A stretch of 38,576 bases of DNA from an uncultured Selenomonas sp. (GTDB taxonomy: Bacteria > Bacillota > Negativicutes > Selenomonadales > Selenomonadaceae): positions 1-38,576 of the forward strand of contig CACXCN010000065.1 in NCBI GenBank assembly GCA_902766095.1, in the 5' to 3' direction. The notes beneath the pieces were generated by a model, which had not been told where the DNA came from, did no database searches, and saw only the letters and a program-made list of their open reading frames with translations. Shown here one piece after another: positions 9,689 to 38,334 of the stretch (the first letter of the stretch is position 1; every line of letters starts with the position of its first letter). The position numbers were made by a program, and so were the translations under genes.

Positions 9689-10642
9689 TCAGCGCAGGAT
9701 GAAGAAGATGACAGGGAATATCAGCAGCAGGTAGGCGGCGGTTGTCGTGACGAAGGAGCTGACGGCCAGGTCGACGTTCAGATGATAGATGCGCGAGGCC
9801 AGCACGGCGTTTATCGCCGTCGGGCAGAACGAGAGGATGAGCAGCGTACCGGAGAACGTGGGATCATCGATGAGCAGATAGCTCAGTGTCAATATGAATA
9901 CCGGGGTCACGATATAGCGCAGGAAGTCGAGACTCAGCGTCGCACGGAAATAGCGGCGCACCTCGTGGAAGTCAATCATGAAGCCGATGGGCAGCATGGC
10001 GATCCAGGCGGATATATGCACGAGGCTCTGGAATACGGGGCCGAGGAATGCCGGGCGCGGGACACCGGCGGCATTCAGCGCGAAACCGACGGCCATGCCG
10101 ACCAGGCTGATCTGGTTCCAGGTCAGGAACATCTCCCGCAGGCTGATGGAGCGGCTGGATTTGGCCAGAGCGTTCGTGTGCTTCCGGTAGCAGTATTGGG
10201 CCATCGGGAATACGACGAGACAAAGCAGTATGTTCTGGCAGGTGCCGATGATCTGCGAGTAGGCAAAGCCGATTTCATTATAAAGGATGAACGCGCATAC
10301 GCCGCCGAGCGTTCCGAGATTCGCCAGCATGGCACTCGCGATGTAGGCACCGCGGTCGAGGTAGTTCTCGATGTGACGCGCGAAGAGCAGATAGCCGGTG
10401 GCACCGGGGAAAAGCACGAGCAGGAAGCCGAACAGCGGTACGAACAGCAGTCCCCAGGATAAGGGCAGTACCCAGAACGACAGTATGGCGAGCACGGTGA
10501 ATATGACGCGTACGTTGAACGTGATGACCTTGTTGATGCTGGTATCACTTATGATATGCCGCTGATGCAGGTAGTAGCCCACGATGAGCGGTGCGATGAG
10601 GTCGGTGACGACGTATATGAGGCGCAGAGTTACATTATCCAT
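9689..10642 (-). CDS. AEC-family transporter
   Basis: A 317-residue, strongly hydrophobic protein with about ten membrane segments in the two-halves pattern of the auxin efflux carrier family, which includes bacterial malate and other carboxylate permeases. A central polar region (about 155-175, KHTNALAKSSRS) separates the halves. Near the C-terminus a segment with SFCPTAINAVLAS matches the conserved helix of the family. ATG 10642 is preferred because AAGGA lies nine bases upstream; ATG 10651 abuts it. The neighbouring malic enzyme on the same strand makes malate or a related dicarboxylate a likely substrate (inference). A terminator-like hairpin lies about 120 bp upstream in what may be its leader. 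Confidence 0.85.
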   Translation of the reverse strand: MDNVTLRLIYVVTDLIAPLIVGYYLHQRHIISDTSINKVITFNVRVIFTVLAILSFWVLPLSWGLLFVPLFGFLLVLFPGATGYLLFARHIENYLDRGAYIASAMLANLGTLGGVCAFILYNEIGFAYSQIIGTCQNILLCLVVFPMAQYCYRKHTNALAKSSRSISLREMFLTWNQISLVGMAVGFALNAAGVPRPAFLGPVFQSLVHISAWIAMLPIGFMIDFHEVRRYFRATLSLDFLRYIVTPVFILTLSYLLIDDPTFSGTLLILSFCPTAINAVLASRIYHLNVDLAVSSFVTTTAAYLLLIFPVIFFILR

Positions 10643-10756
10643 AAAGTACATTCCTTGTCCTGTAGATGTCGAAGTTGCCTGCGGATACGAAATAATCCTA
10701 TCATGATTAGCTCTGGATGTAAACCTGAGGCGATCGGCCAGATATATGCTGACATG

Positions 10757-10792
10757 AAAACGCCCCCTGCGCGGTGTGAGCGCAGAGGGCGT
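10757..10792 (-). terminator. Minus-strand terminator-like hairpin upstream of the AEC gene
   Basis: Arms ACGCCCCCTGCGC (10760-10772) and GCGCAGAGGGCGT (10780-10792) pair at 12 of 13 positions around a 7-nt loop. On the minus strand the stem is followed directly by TTTT. No minus-strand gene lies to its right, so either it attenuates a carrier-gene transcript starting further right or it is left over from a lost gene. I see no start signal for a small gene in this 400-bp gap. Confidence 0.5.
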
Positions 10793-10940: not shown

Positions 10941-11065
10941 GCTATATCCAATGAAGCTTTCGTTGGTTGCCGCAATCATCGTAGCAGAGAGGACAGCCTT
11001 GCGTAGGGGGGACTGTCTCTTCGTTATGGGGATTTACAATTTCTATGTATAAGGGGAATTCGTTT

Positions 11066-12402
11066 ATGAGAAAGACACTCGTATCCACACTTACCGCGGC
11101 ATGCTTCTCGGCACAGCCGGGACGACGTTCGCAGCGGCCAATCCGTTCAGCGATGTACCGCAGGGCCACTGGGCTTATGACTATGTGAACCAGCTGGCTG
11201 CCGATGGCGTCATTGATGGCTATGGCGATGCGACGTTCCAGGGGAACAAGGACATCACCCGCTATGAGATGGCGAAGATGGTTGCGAAGGCCATGGCTAA
11301 GCCGAATGTCGGCAGCACGGACAAGGCGATGCTCGACAAGCTGGCGGCTGAGTTCTCTGACGAGCTCAACAACCTCGGTGTCCGCATCGCGAACCTCGAA
11401 CGGAATGCTGACAAAGTCCAGTGGCATGGCATGCTGCGCTATGACTACGGCAGCCTCCGATACGATAAGGCGCCGGCAGATCTCTATGTCAACGGCGGCA
11501 AGGTAGCGCAAAAGGGCGATACGCATGTCCGCGCTAACAATAACTCCACGACGTTCCGTCTGGAGCCGATCGCAGAGGTCAACGACCATTGGAAAGTCCG
11601 TGCGCGTATCGATGCCTATGGCGATATGAAGAAGGACCAGCAGGGGACTCTCGGCCTGAAACGTCTCTGGGCCGAGGGCAGATATGGCAATACGACGCTG
11701 AAATTCGGCCGTATGCCGGTCGGCATCGACATGGATATCATGTTCGATACGCATTTCTCCGGCGCACAGGTCGCTTTCGGGAAAAAGAAGGGCCTCATCA
11801 CGACGATCAATGCCGGCCGCTTCAACCTGAACAGCGGTAATGAGTATTATCTGTATGCCCAGCATCTGGCCGGGGCGAAAAATGACGCTACGGCCAACTA
11901 TCAGGCCATCAGCTTCAATGTCAGCAACGGCCGCTGGACGAATACGGGCGTTGCCTATCATCATCTGAACACCAGCACGTTCGGCTATCTCCCAGGCTAC
12001 AAGAACGGCAGCCAGAATGCGGATGAGATGAATACGGCAACGGCGAAGGCGACGTATCACTTCAACAAGAACTGGGCGCTGCAGGGCAACTATGGTCATA
12101 ACTTCTCGGCCGACAACTACAACGATTCCTTCCACTATGTCCTCGGCTACAAGGATTTTGAGAACTTCAACACGGAGCATCAGGGCCAGTGGGGCGCCAG
12201 CGTCGCCTACCGCTATGTCGGCCAGAATGTCGGCCCGACTCCGACCTACACGATGGATCCGGGTACCAAGGGCCTCGCGCTCAGCATCATCGGCAATCCG
12301 ATGAAGCACACGTATGCATGGCTGCAGTATGAAGTCGGCAAGACGCTGATCGGCAACCACAATTACAAAGAACTCTTCGGCCGTATGGAGTGGCAGTTCT
12401 GA
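11066..12402 (+). CDS. SLH-domain outer-membrane porin (OmpM-like), frameshifted in the signal peptide
   Basis: OmpM-type proteins of diderm Firmicutes tie the outer membrane to peptidoglycan through an SLH domain and form a beta-barrel. ATG 11066 (upstream AAGGGGAA) encodes MRKTLVSTLTAA, and the next frame carries LLGTAGTTFAAANPFSDV. Together they make a perfect signal peptide with cleavage near FAA-AN, but one base is missing around 11100. The downstream frame opens at 11101 without a ribosome binding site. After cleavage come one SLH motif (FSDVPQGHWAYDYV to TRYEMAKMVAKAM), a short coiled coil (about 75-105) and roughly 320 residues of alternating beta-barrel sequence ending in GRMEWQF; the terminal Phe is a typical barrel-assembly signal. 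Either the strain has lost this porin or the base is a sequencing error. Confidence 0.88.
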
Positions 12403-12467
12403 TTCCGACGGAGATTTCTGGAGGGCTGTAACGAAATACGATTCTGTCGCTGACAGGAGGAAGATAT

Positions 12468-14135
12468 ATGTTTGGAAAACGTTCAAAGAAAGTCCTGGCA
12501 TTGGCTGCGCTGTCGGCCGCTATTATGTCGGGAACGGCGTTTGCCGGGGATCTGACGGTCTATTCGACCTCGGACATTCACGGCAGTGTGATCGGCTGGA
12601 ATTATTTCACGGCCAAGGAGGCCGACCTCGGGTTGGCAAAGGTCAGCACGATCATCAATGAGGGCCGCAGGAACAAGGGCGCGGATGATGATATCCTCGT
12701 CATCGACGGCGGCGATATCCTTCAGGGCACGCCGCTCGACACCTATATGGTTCAGCATCCGAATGAGTGGAAAGCCGGCCAGCACCCGATGTTTGCCGCG
12801 TTCAACAAGATCGGCTACGATGCGATCGAGCTCGGCAACCATGAATTCAATTTCGGGCTCGACTATCTGCGCAAAGCCATCGGCAAGAACAAGAACGTCC
12901 TCGGCGCCAACGTCATTGACGATAAGACTGGAAAGACCTGGAACGGCGTCCGGCCGTATCTCATGAAGACGGTCAAGATCGACGGCGAAAAGGTGAAGGT
13001 CGGCATCATCGGCACAGACACGCCGGCCATCCCAAATTTTGAAGATCCGTCGCATTTTGCCGGCGTCCACTTTGTCGATCAGGTTCCGGTCGTGAAACAG
13101 TGCATCAAGGAGCTCAAGGCTCAGGGAGCTGACATCATCATCGGTGTGACGCACTCCGGTGTCCCGCGCGGAGATCGTAACTCGGCGGAGAATCAGGTCG
13201 TGAGCATTGCTGAGGCATGCCCGGAGCTGTCGCTGCTGATCTGTGCCCATAACCATGTCGTCATTGACAACCAGAGCGGTGTCAAAGGGCCGGATGGAAC
13301 GGTCTATAAGGATGCGGTCATCAATGGCGTGCCGGTGGTCGAGAGCGGCAAAGACGGCAAATTCGTCGGGGAGAGCAAGCTGACGCTCAAGAAGGTAGAT
13401 GGAAAGTGGAAGGTTGAAAAGGTCTCGACCAAGGCTGTATCGACGAAGGGCGTCAAAGACGACCCGGCCATCGTCGCTCAGGTAAAGCCCTGGCACGAAA
13501 AGACGCTGAAAAATCTCCAGACGGTCATCGGCCAGGCTTCGGATGTGTTCTCCGGCGCGGAGTCGAATCATCAGGATTCGGCGATCGTCGATCTCGTCAA
13601 TGAGGTGCAGCGCCACTATGCTGGTACGCAGCTGTCGGCGTCCGCCTCGTTCAACACGAGCCAGAACATCGACAAGGGACCGATCACTCTGCAGGAGATG
13701 TCCGGCCTTTATATCTACGAGAATTATCTCTATGGCATCGAGATCAACGGCGCTGAGCTGCGCAAGTACATGGAGCATGCAGCCAGCTTCTACGGCACGA
13801 CGCCGGACTACAATTACGACATGATTCAGGGTGTGGACTACACCATCGACATGACGAAACCGGTCGGCAGCCGCATCACGAAGCTCCAGTATAAGGGCAA
13901 GGATGTCAAGGACACGGATACGTTCACGATGGCCATCAACGACTACCGCATGAACGGCGGCAGCGGCTACATGGCGGCAATGGGCTACACCAACGGCAAA
14001 AAGCCGAAGGTCATCTTTGACTCCATGCGCAAATACGGCGACGACGGCCAGATGCGCGCCCTCATGATCCGCTATGTGCAGGAAAAGGGAACGATTACGC
14101 CGACCTGCGACCATAACTGGAATGTAATCAAATAA
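12468..14135 (+). CDS. Periplasmic bifunctional metallophosphatase/5'-nucleotidase (copy A)
   Basis: A 555-residue UshA/CpdB-family enzyme that removes phosphate from extracellular nucleotides. It has a clear signal peptide (cleavage near TAFA-GD, residue 26). Metal ligands are D36-x-H38, D83 in GGDILQG, GNHE (123-126), H229, and H261-x-H263. The last motif reads CAHNH where the family usually has GHxH. The C-terminal substrate domain includes YIYENYLYG and YMEHAASFY, in the region that usually stacks the nucleotide base. AGGAGG precedes ATG 12468, 65 bp after the porin, so porin-plus-nucleotidase co-expression is plausible. Its last 52 codons are duplicated at 16111-16266. Confidence 0.92.
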   Translation: MFGKRSKKVLALAALSAAIMSGTAFAGDLTVYSTSDIHGSVIGWNYFTAKEADLGLAKVSTIINEGRRNKGADDDILVIDGGDILQGTPLDTYMVQHPNEWKAGQHPMFAAFNKIGYDAIELGNHEFNFGLDYLRKAIGKNKNVLGANVIDDKTGKTWNGVRPYLMKTVKIDGEKVKVGIIGTDTPAIPNFEDPSHFAGVHFVDQVPVVKQCIKELKAQGADIIIGVTHSGVPRGDRNSAENQVVSIAEACPELSLLICAHNHVVIDNQSGVKGPDGTVYKDAVINGVPVVESGKDGKFVGESKLTLKKVDGKWKVEKVSTKAVSTKGVKDDPAIVAQVKPWHEKTLKNLQTVIGQASDVFSGAESNHQDSAIVDLVNEVQRHYAGTQLSASASFNTSQNIDKGPITLQEMSGLYIYENYLYGIEINGAELRKYMEHAASFYGTTPDYNYDMIQGVDYTIDMTKPVGSRITKLQYKGKDVKDTDTFTMAINDYRMNGGSGYMAAMGYTNGKKPKVIFDSMRKYGDDGQMRALMIRYVQEKGTITPTCDHNWNVIK

Positions 14136-14153
14136 TCGCTTCGCTGGGAGCAA

Positions 14154-14185
14154 AAACGGACTTTTCCTTCGGGAAAAGTCTGTTT
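14154..14185 (+). terminator. Hairpin between the two nucleotidase genes
   Basis: A 14-bp stem with one G-U pair (14154-14167 with 14172-14185) closes a TTCG tetraloop. The 3' arm ends in TTT, so it may terminate or reduce transcription from copy A into copy B, whose ATG is 30 bp on. Confidence 0.6.
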
Positions 14186-14214
14186 GCTATCCGTATCACA
14201 AAGGAGGAACCATC

Positions 14215-16026
14215 ATGCGTTGGAACAAAATACGAAAGCTCCTGCTGGTAGCCTGTGTATCTGCCACGCTCACAGGAACGATCCCGGCTGCGGTGGCCTG
14301 GGCTGCTGCTGATGATACCGTAACCGTCACAATTCTCGGGACTTCGGATGTCCACGGCCGGTTTATGCCCTGGGACTATGCGACTGACAGGGAAGACCGC
14401 TCCGGCAGTATGGTACAGCTCAGCACGATGATCCGTCAGATTCGCGCGGAAAATCCGAATACGATTCTGGTCGACTGCGGCGATGCCATTCAGGACAACA
14501 GCGTCGAGCAGTTCAATACCGGCAAGGCGCAGCCGATGGTCGTGGCGATGAACCGCATGGGCTACGATGTCTGGAATATGGGCAACCATGAGTTCAACTT
14601 CGGTCTGGACGTACTGCGCCATGTGACGAAACAGTTCCGGGGACAGGTGCTCTGCGGCAACGTCTATTGGGACAGCGGCAAGCGCTTCATGCCGGCGACG
14701 ACCGTTGTGAAACGCGGCGGGATCCGCGTCGGAATCATCGGCATGGACACGCCGATGATCGCCGAGTTTGAAAAGAACTCGGATCACCTGAAAGGCGTTG
14801 TCGTCAAAAACCCGAAGGATGAGACGCGCAAGGCAATCGCAGAGCTGAACGGAAAGGCGGATGTACTCGTAGGCGTCATGCACATGGGCGTAGACAATGA
14901 GAACGACATCCCCGATACCGGCGTGACGGACATCGCTGCGGCGTGTCCGGAGCTTGCGGCCATCGTAGCCGGCCATATGCACCGCAATGTCAGCAGCAAA
15001 ACCATTCACGGCGTACTCGTTTCCGAGCCGTATAAATACGGTCAGGCGCTGACGCGCATCGACCTGACGTTCCAAAAGGAAAACGGCCGGTTTGTTTTGA
15101 CGGACAAAAAGGCGCAGACGTTGCCGGTTGGAAAAATTGCCGCCGATGAAAGTCTGATAAAAGAGCTGGCTCCCTTCCACGAAAAAGCGCGTGCCGCGGC
15201 CAATGAGCAAATCGGCGAAGTTACCGGCATGAATATGGTGCCGGAAGATTCGATGCCGGGCATCAGCGAAGTGCAGGTGGCCGATACGCCGCTCACGAAT
15301 TTCTTCAACGAAGTACAGCTCTATTACAGCGGCGCCGACGTCGTGTCGGTCATCATCAGCCGTGACAATGCCCAACAGGCAGTCGGCCCGATCCGCCGCA
15401 AGGATATTGCATTCAACTATCAATATACAGGCGGCGAGACGACGGTGTATGAGGTAACGGGACGCGACCTCAAAGACTACATGGAATGGGCGGCGGCCTA
15501 TTTCAATCAGAAACAGCCCGGCGACATCGCGCCGAGCTATAATCCCGCGCGCCGTGCCTCCAAGTACAGCACGAACGACATCTTCGGCGGCGTCACCTAC
15601 GAAATCGATCTGACACAGCCGGCAGGCTCCCGCATCAAAAACCTGCGTCTCAAAAAATCAGGCAGGCTCATCGGCGATGCGGACAAGCTCAAACTGGGCA
15701 TGAATGCCTATCGCATGAACCAGCTCATCGCCAAGGGCGGCGCGCTGGAAGGACGGCATTTCCCGGAACTCTGGACCTCTCTCAAGGCCTTCGGCGAGAC
15801 GGACGGAACCATCCGCAACATGGCCATCCGCTACATCCGCGAGGTCAAAAAAGGCAGGATTGACGTCAAACCCGTTCATGACTGGAAAATCACCGGCTTC
15901 GACCGCGACTCTGCCGCCTATAAAAAAGCGGCCCAGCAGCGAAAGAACGGTACCCTTTCCCTGCATAATTCAAAGGACGGCAAGTACACCAACATTCAGT
16001 CGATGAATGAAAAGGATTTAAAATAA
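14215..16026 (+). CDS. Periplasmic bifunctional metallophosphatase/5'-nucleotidase (copy B)
   Basis: A 603-residue paralogue of copy A. The signal peptide ends near AWA-AADD (about residue 30). The metal motifs are complete and classical: D45-x-H47 in GTSDVHGRF, D90, GNHE (123-126), H223 and GHMH (253-256). The substrate-domain segment is DYMEWAAAYFNQ. Compared with copy A it has a longer C-terminus, a Lys/Asn-rich extension of about 40 residues. AAAGGAGGA precedes ATG 14215. Sequence identity to copy A is clearly moderate, so this is an old duplication with likely different substrates (2',3'-cyclic nucleotides, 5'-nucleotides or UDP-sugars; not separable by eye). Confidence 0.92.
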   Translation: MRWNKIRKLLLVACVSATLTGTIPAAVAWAAADDTVTVTILGTSDVHGRFMPWDYATDREDRSGSMVQLSTMIRQIRAENPNTILVDCGDAIQDNSVEQFNTGKAQPMVVAMNRMGYDVWNMGNHEFNFGLDVLRHVTKQFRGQVLCGNVYWDSGKRFMPATTVVKRGGIRVGIIGMDTPMIAEFEKNSDHLKGVVVKNPKDETRKAIAELNGKADVLVGVMHMGVDNENDIPDTGVTDIAAACPELAAIVAGHMHRNVSSKTIHGVLVSEPYKYGQALTRIDLTFQKENGRFVLTDKKAQTLPVGKIAADESLIKELAPFHEKARAAANEQIGEVTGMNMVPEDSMPGISEVQVADTPLTNFFNEVQLYYSGADVVSVIISRDNAQQAVGPIRRKDIAFNYQYTGGETTVYEVTGRDLKDYMEWAAAYFNQKQPGDIAPSYNPARRASKYSTNDIFGGVTYEIDLTQPAGSRIKNLRLKKSGRLIGDADKLKLGMNAYRMNQLIAKGGALEGRHFPELWTSLKAFGETDGTIRNMAIRYIREVKKGRIDVKPVHDWKITGFDRDSAAYKKAAQQRKNGTLSLHNSKDGKYTNIQSMNEKDLK

Positions 16027-16034
16027 ATAAACAG

Positions 16035-16077
16035 GGGCTGAGACAAAGTGATTTTATTTGGTCTCAGCCCTTTTTTT
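16035..16077 (+). terminator. Terminator after nucleotidase copy B
   Basis: GGGCTGAGAC (16035-16044) pairs perfectly with GTCTCAGCCC (16061-16070), followed by seven T (16071-16077). It lies 8 bp past the stop. Confidence 0.9.
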
Positions 16078-16110
16078 GAACACAAAAAGCGGCTCGCCTG
16101 TCAGGCGAAC

Positions 16111-37031: not shown

Positions 37032-37056
37032 GATATTCAAGAAAGGTGATTGATTG

Positions 37057-38334
37057 ATGAAGAAAGCAACATCCATAGCGATAGCAGCAGCGCTGATGCT
37101 GAGCTGTGCTGCCATGCCAACGGCTATGGCTTCCCGACATGTCAATGACAACAGCAACACTACGCAGAATCTGACAGACAAACGATATGCCGGGACAAAC
37201 AACACGCCAGGGAAATGGGACAGCCAGGCACTGAACAAGCGCATAGCTGCTGTGATGTCCGAATACAAGGATGAAAATAAATGTCCCTCCCCGTACGGTA
37301 CGCACATGAGCAATACGACGATGCGCCTCTGGAAGGTCGAGTCGCGTGATACCGGCGGTACCTTGCTGTTCTCGGACAGCCCGGAGTATGTTGATCGCGA
37401 CGGCATCCTTTATCAGGATACGGTCAGCGGTGATGCCCGCATCCTGTACTACCATCTCGACAATACGGACGAGGCCAAAAAGGTCGCTGTTGTGCTCGAG
37501 AGCGAGACCCCGAACAATGTCATCCGCATAACGCGCGGCGGGGCCAGCACGCCGAGCAGCGATTATCTCGAGGTAGGTAAAGCTACGCAGATGCAGTATT
37601 TCGCGCATCAGCTCAATGACCGTATCTACCTCGGCACGGGCGAGCGAGCAGTGCTGCGACAGGACATGAATACGACGATATTGCAGCCCGGCCAGCTCGT
37701 CTACGGCGTATATGATTTCCATAGTGCGGGACCGGTGAAGGTCACGGTGCTCATGTGCCCCGCGGATGCCGATCCCTGCACATTCGTAGATGAGGCTGAG
37801 GTATTGCCGAAGGACCAGTATCGCCTGCGCGGCACGTTCAAAGGCATGGACCGCATCATTACGGCTCCGAAGGCCTATGATCCTACGCGGGATGGTATCG
37901 TTTATTTCCCGCTCGCTGACGATAAACACGATGTATATCGCGTCGGTATTGATGCTACCGATGGCAGCCAGGTGAAAAATGTCGGCAACTATGGCGTGCT
38001 CTACAAGATCGAGATACCGATCGCGGGCAAGAAGCTCACGCAGTTCTACCTGAGTCCGCTCGGTGGCGTCTATGCGGGCGCTATGGGCGTGCGTGAGGGC
38101 TTGCTGCAGAATATGCTGCCTACCCCTATGGGGCGGACCTATTTCGGCGATCAGACGCCGCCAGAGCCCGAGAACGTGGCCAAGGCGCGTGAGGAAGGCA
38201 TCGCGTTCCTGACGAAGTGCACCGAGCTGGCCGATCTCGGCAGCTATAATGCCAGCAACCAGACCAGCTTCGAATATTCGCCGCCGGGCGCATCGAATCT
38301 GCCCGTCAATATCATCATGATGCCAGCAAAATGA
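37057..38334 (+). CDS. Exported protein of unknown function
   Basis: A 425-residue protein with a clear Sec signal peptide (MKKATSIAIAAALMLSCAAM to AMAS, cleavage about residue 24-26). The mature part has no membrane segment and no motif I recognise. It looks beta-rich, with two similar-looking stretches around QPGQLVYGVYDFHSAGPVKV and KLTQFYLSPLGGVYAGAMGV. One pair of cysteines lies in VLMCPADADPCTF. AAAGGTGA precedes ATG 37057, and the gene follows the deacetylase by 25 bp, so it is probably its operon partner. A terminator follows. I give no function. Confidence 0.8.
   Translation: MKKATSIAIAAALMLSCAAMPTAMASRHVNDNSNTTQNLTDKRYAGTNNTPGKWDSQALNKRIAAVMSEYKDENKCPSPYGTHMSNTTMRLWKVESRDTGGTLLFSDSPEYVDRDGILYQDTVSGDARILYYHLDNTDEAKKVAVVLESETPNNVIRITRGGASTPSSDYLEVGKATQMQYFAHQLNDRIYLGTGERAVLRQDMNTTILQPGQLVYGVYDFHSAGPVKVTVLMCPADADPCTFVDEAEVLPKDQYRLRGTFKGMDRIITAPKAYDPTRDGIVYFPLADDKHDVYRVGIDATDGSQVKNVGNYGVLYKIEIPIAGKKLTQFYLSPLGGVYAGAMGVREGLLQNMLPTPMGRTYFGDQTPPEPENVAKAREEGIAFLTKCTELADLGSYNASNQTSFEYSPPGASNLPVNIIMMPAK

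Follow-up and report, generated by a model that had tools for sequence, protein, structure and literature searches.

A private frame break in the signal peptide of a nucleotidase-linked OmpM-type porin gene from an uncultured Selenomonas sp.

Has a porin gene in an uncultured Selenomonas sp. lost a single base from its signal-peptide codons, and what would such a loss mean for the cell? The question arises from a window of 38,576 nt, i.e., the whole stretch of DNA that was analysed (contig CACXCN010000065.1, positions 1 to 38,576), in which an earlier note had reported that a one-base frameshift splits the signal peptide of an OmpM-like SLH porin. Direct reading of the assembled sequence bears this out: an ATG at 11066, preceded by a stretch resembling a ribosome binding site, opens the first half of a signal peptide, the rest lies in the frame of 11101, and the DNA is one base shorter than that of the orthologues. 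The features at this end of the gene are:

11051 to 11057, + strand: purine-rich stretch resembling a ribosome binding site before ATG 11066 (from the sequence; TAAGG match 11 bases 5' of the ATG)
11066 to 11188, + strand: 40-codon ORF that carries MRKTLVSTLTAA, the signal peptide's first half, and then leaves the porin frame (direct reading and ORF list)
11096 to 11101, + strand: site one base short in alignments with the orthologues, its exact column depending on the alignment
11101 to 12402, + strand: intact ORF with the second half of the signal peptide, an SLH domain, a coiled coil and a predicted 16-stranded barrel, an OmpM-type porin (ORF, Pfam, phmmer, structural model, Foldseek)

The two halves of the signal peptide

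From ATG 11066 the sequence encodes MRKTLVSTLTAAC... before the porin frame is left and a stop is reached at 11188; an in-frame ATG at 11045 also opens this ORF, and the ORF list starts there. The frame of ATG 11101 reads MLLGTAGTTFAAANPFSDV... and runs to a stop ending at 12402. The earlier claim that the remaining 430 codons are intact is thus right about the body and wrong about the count, which is 433. Upstream, the porin frame is closed by an in-frame TAA at 11050; it holds no ATG, GTG or TTG between this stop and ATG 11101, and the 20 bases before ATG 11101 contain no Shine-Dalgarno-like match. Two alignments put the gap at opposite ends of 11096-11101. The out-of-frame peptide TLTAAC was considered as a lipobox, but its likeness to that motif is loose, with T at position -3, and we regard it as a coincidence. 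Scans of the window for Rfam families and tRNAs gave no match, and one for promoters and terminators showed no telling site. A 13-base inverted repeat (10760-10792, 92% complementary, 7-base loop) precedes the porin gene, close to the end of the stretch that separates the porin from the gene on the opposite strand.

The protein encoded from 11101 is a further member of the OmpM-type SLH porins. It matches OmpM1 of Veillonella parvula over nearly its whole length (phmmer 3.6e-31), and residues 15-58 match Pfam SLH with an E-value of 2e-12. An AlphaFold2 model built from 36 sequences (mean pLDDT 83.6, pTM 0.70) predicts an SLH-like helical start, a coiled-coil helix at 86-103 and 16 long strands at 110-432, with low confidence in the linker region; because it begins at 11101, the model has no bearing on export. 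When the model is compared with the PDB using Foldseek, the top four matches are all OmpM1 chains (8bys, 8bym and 8byt, best 6.1e-18). The predicted order of SLH stalk, coiled coil and 16-stranded barrel is that of OmpM1, and the same architecture is described for Mep45 of Selenomonas ruminantium, an OmpM-type protein from the same family, Selenomonadaceae (PMC10628300). That paper describes OmpM1 and Mep45 as trimers that bind polyaminated peptidoglycan and act as general diffusion pores. Unlike OmpM1, the window copy has its signal peptide out of frame as assembled, and its orthologue group adjoins a nucleotidase-family gene.

Relatives, paralogues and the quality of the contig

By scanning the contigs of other genomes we found four orthologue loci, in S. 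montiformis (85% identical), a Selenomonadaceae MAG, S. ruminantium S137 and Selenomonas sp. AE3005. All four have an unbroken, in-frame signal peptide. The earlier note had suggested orthologues as a check, a genuinely different working start being the outcome that would overturn its reading; all four start at the place matching 11066, and none shows a different working start. Among the genomes searched, the window genome is the sole member of its genus. In a wider set of 63 distinct full-length genes from 17 genomes, hand-picked from the listed match places rather than exhaustive, 62 read the cleavable signal peptide and the porin in one frame, with an in-frame start and a basic n-region located 18-32 codons ahead of NPF; the exception is the window gene. 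Ten relatives dropped by the motif filter are in frame wherever the 5' end is present, and one more (locus L035) is truncated by a contig end. Because the two peptides of the window gene are the two halves of one orthologue signal peptide, and 62 of 63 relatives have it in a single frame, the frame break is not a chance arrangement of ORFs.

The remainder of the contig appears clean. The region 11063-16110 aligns with S. montiformis at 88.8%, and within the coding DNA of the porin and the two nucleotidase-family genes that follow it, the porin break is the only indel not divisible by three; all others of this kind are intergenic. Each of the other 26 window genes with a Pfam match has it in a single frame, mostly over nearly the whole profile, which argues that the contig is not error-rich. 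No convincing Pfam match was found for the ORFs at 9689-10651 (- strand) and 37054-38334 (+ strand), nor for ORFs lying opposite real genes. The porin body is itself constrained, with dN/dS relative to S. montiformis of 0.116 for the whole gene and 0.110 for the barrel. Using the MAG orthologue as outgroup, 15 amino-acid changes are private to the window gene vs 23 on the S. montiformis side (barrel 6 vs 16, stalk 8 vs 6). There is thus neither an excess of changes nor any further lesion in the 433 codons, and a constrained body without decay implies that the lesion is either very young or an error of sequencing or assembly. If the window gene is a pseudogene, it would have to be a very young one.

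The genome contains at least five OmpM-type porins: the window gene, two complete genes on other contigs (C63 and C10) whose signal peptides are in frame, and two that run into contig ends (C35 and C22); another eight matches cover the SLH part only. In C35 and C22 the contig ends fall in or after the SLH part, which leaves their signal peptides out of view. Several paralogues per genome are also described for the OmpM family of Negativicutes (PMC10628300). The earlier suggestion that other porin copies exist therefore holds, with at least four more, whereas the picture of a major outer-membrane tether switched off does not: the gene is one of at least five, it falls into a distinct orthologue group linked to a nucleotidase, and nothing marks it as the abundant copy. 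Mep45 is described as a major protein (PMC10628300). In V. parvula the described detachment required deletion of three of the four OmpM paralogues (PMC10628300), and by analogy the loss of one copy here would be unlikely to be fatal.

Two genes downstream of the porin set its group apart:

12468 to 14135, + strand: 2',3'-cyclic-nucleotide phosphodiesterase/nucleotidase-family gene, the porin's companion in the orthologue loci (Pfam, sequence match, orthologue loci)
14215 to 16026, + strand: second nucleotidase-family gene, collinear in S. montiformis (Pfam, sequence match, alignment)

A nucleotidase-family gene follows the porin in all four orthologue loci (L014, L015, L016 and L017), and the nucleotidase motif occurs in none of 29 other porin loci, for flanks of at most 1.5 kb, some of them cut by contig ends. 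Judged by sequence and gene order, the window porin is part of an orthologue group of its own, whose members stand next to a gene of the periplasmic nucleotidase family. From this neighbourhood, its barrel is possibly a specialised pore for the uptake of nucleotides or phosphate esters.

What could explain the break

The best explanation in our view is that the one-base deletion in the signal-peptide codons is real and very recent and that the gene yields no exported porin, to which we assign a probability of roughly 0.58; we place it above error and give little weight to recoding or switching. Translation starting at ATG 11066 would leave the porin frame within about 12 codons and end at 11188, so that no exported porin would be made from this gene, and the paralogues would keep the outer membrane tethered. 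The break is read directly, it is confined to the window gene among the 63 genes compared, the rest of the contig is clean, and at least four other OmpM-type porins, two of them complete and in frame, would presumably compensate for a protein lost if the base is truly missing in the cell. However, a survey of prokaryotic frameshifts (PMC3711429) expects that isolated cases validated by homology mostly reflect sequencing errors and not real indels. The assembly also breaks off within OmpM genes on several contigs, so the family was hard to assemble. The intact body is also what an error would leave behind. It is therefore a serious possibility, if not the one we favour, that the cell carries an unbroken gene for an ordinary exported porin. 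The private one-base break with homologues on both sides resembles the 'singletons' of the GeneTack survey (PMC3711429), but here the rest of the contig has been checked and found clean. The site itself speaks against an error: the longest run in 11066-11140 is 3 bases, and a repeat scan found no direct or tandem repeat at the break. The earlier note had likewise reported no long homopolymer and had judged slippage less likely than a mutation or an error, both of which are supported. The closest stretches to the 5' region elsewhere in the genome are 85-88% identical, too unlike for a simple mix-up of reads among the assembled copies. A chimeric contig joining two paralogues was rejected on the same identities, and because the contig ends within OmpM genes match others at 96% or less, with no exact overlap found.

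The open and constrained porin frame would also fit a gene that is still translated, either by a programmed -1 frameshift near 11100, by a start at 11101 or by a rare start such as ATC 11083. We consider this very improbable. The break is conserved in none of the 62 other full-length genes, no slippery heptamer is seen near it by eye, the RNA fold at the break is no stronger than in shuffled sequences (z of 0.11 and -0.48), no reinitiation site was found there, and, as noted, nothing before 11101 resembles a Shine-Dalgarno element. Sec signal peptides carry a basic n-region, which MLLGTAGTTFAAA lacks. The least probable reading of all is a contingency locus switched on and off by repeat slippage; the porin is surface-exposed and its 5' end does hold the break, but the site offers no repeat or homopolymer to slip on, and the relatives include no off-frame copies.

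Shared stalks and separate barrels

The frameshift alone would matter little, affecting one of at least five paralogues and being either a young null allele or an error. The pattern of stalks and barrels may matter more, and it first appears within the window gene, where one segment differs from the rest in the genes that it resembles:

11154 to 11406, + strand: stalk-coding segment resembling the paralogues of the same genome, not the S. montiformis orthologue (informative sites, tree)

Set against the S. montiformis orthologue, C63 and C10, the window gene has 249 informative sites, 65 paralogue-like and 184 orthologue-like. The best paralogue-like segment, 11154-11406, holds 39 vs 4 of these, against 26 vs 180 outside it, and its score is reached in none of 20000 permutations. 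In trees the window stalk groups with C63 and C10 and the window barrel with S. montiformis, both with SH-aLRT 100, and the dS between orthologues is 1.25 for the stalk, 0.69 for the barrel and 0.37 for the first nucleotidase gene. The fourfold sites of the window stalk match the orthologue (26/42) almost as well as the paralogues (29/44 and 30/43), which indicates that the conversion is not recent. We also considered whether gene conversion caused the deletion, and rejected it: by sites common to both complete paralogues the converted segment starts only at 11154, and the informative sites nearest the break (11092, 11096 and 11139) are orthologue-like. Against C63 alone, and in that comparison only, the best paralogue-like segment starts at 11098.

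The same contrast between stalk and barrel is seen across genomes. In a set of 63 genes from 17 genomes (the window gene, C63, C10 and 60 genes of 16 other genomes), 56 of 61 genes (53 without ties) have their nearest stalk, by protein, within their own genome, compared with 21 of 61 for the nearest barrel. Identity at fourfold sites within vs between genomes is 0.656 vs 0.445 for stalks and 0.536 vs 0.436 for barrels; none of 2000 shuffles of the labels, made without regard to relatedness, attained the difference of differences of 0.111. On quick trees the genome label changes 19 times for stalks (minimum 16; 279 columns, 11 of 60 branches starred) and 40 times for barrels (49.6 when shuffled). 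The stalks of two genomes, G025 and G036, depart from the grouping by genome, and selection shared by the anchors could contribute to the pattern in the stalk proteins. From these comparisons, the OmpM tether module, that of the window gene included, appears to be under concerted evolution, with the copies swapping one anchor.

A survey of long-lasting concerted evolution names outer-membrane proteins as frequent short-term cases (PMC6053082), which suggests that this kind of process is already known; our literature searches, mostly outside subscription journals, found no papers on conversion among OmpM genes. The authors of a V. parvula study raised the question of why there are multiple copies of OmpM in diderm Firmicutes (PMC5491611). 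If stalks are alike within a genome while barrels fall into orthologue groups that cross genera, the copies resemble a set of specialised pores that share an anchor, which can be tested barrel by barrel. One could go further and view the copies as a recombining family, in which conversion keeps a genome-specific anchor while the barrels specialise, and in which the out-of-frame copy, its barrel perhaps specialised for nucleotides or phosphate esters, is a silent member that an intact paralogue could re-activate, so that an outer-membrane porin would be switched through gene conversion; we consider this quite improbable. The converted segment begins about 54 bases downstream of the frame break.
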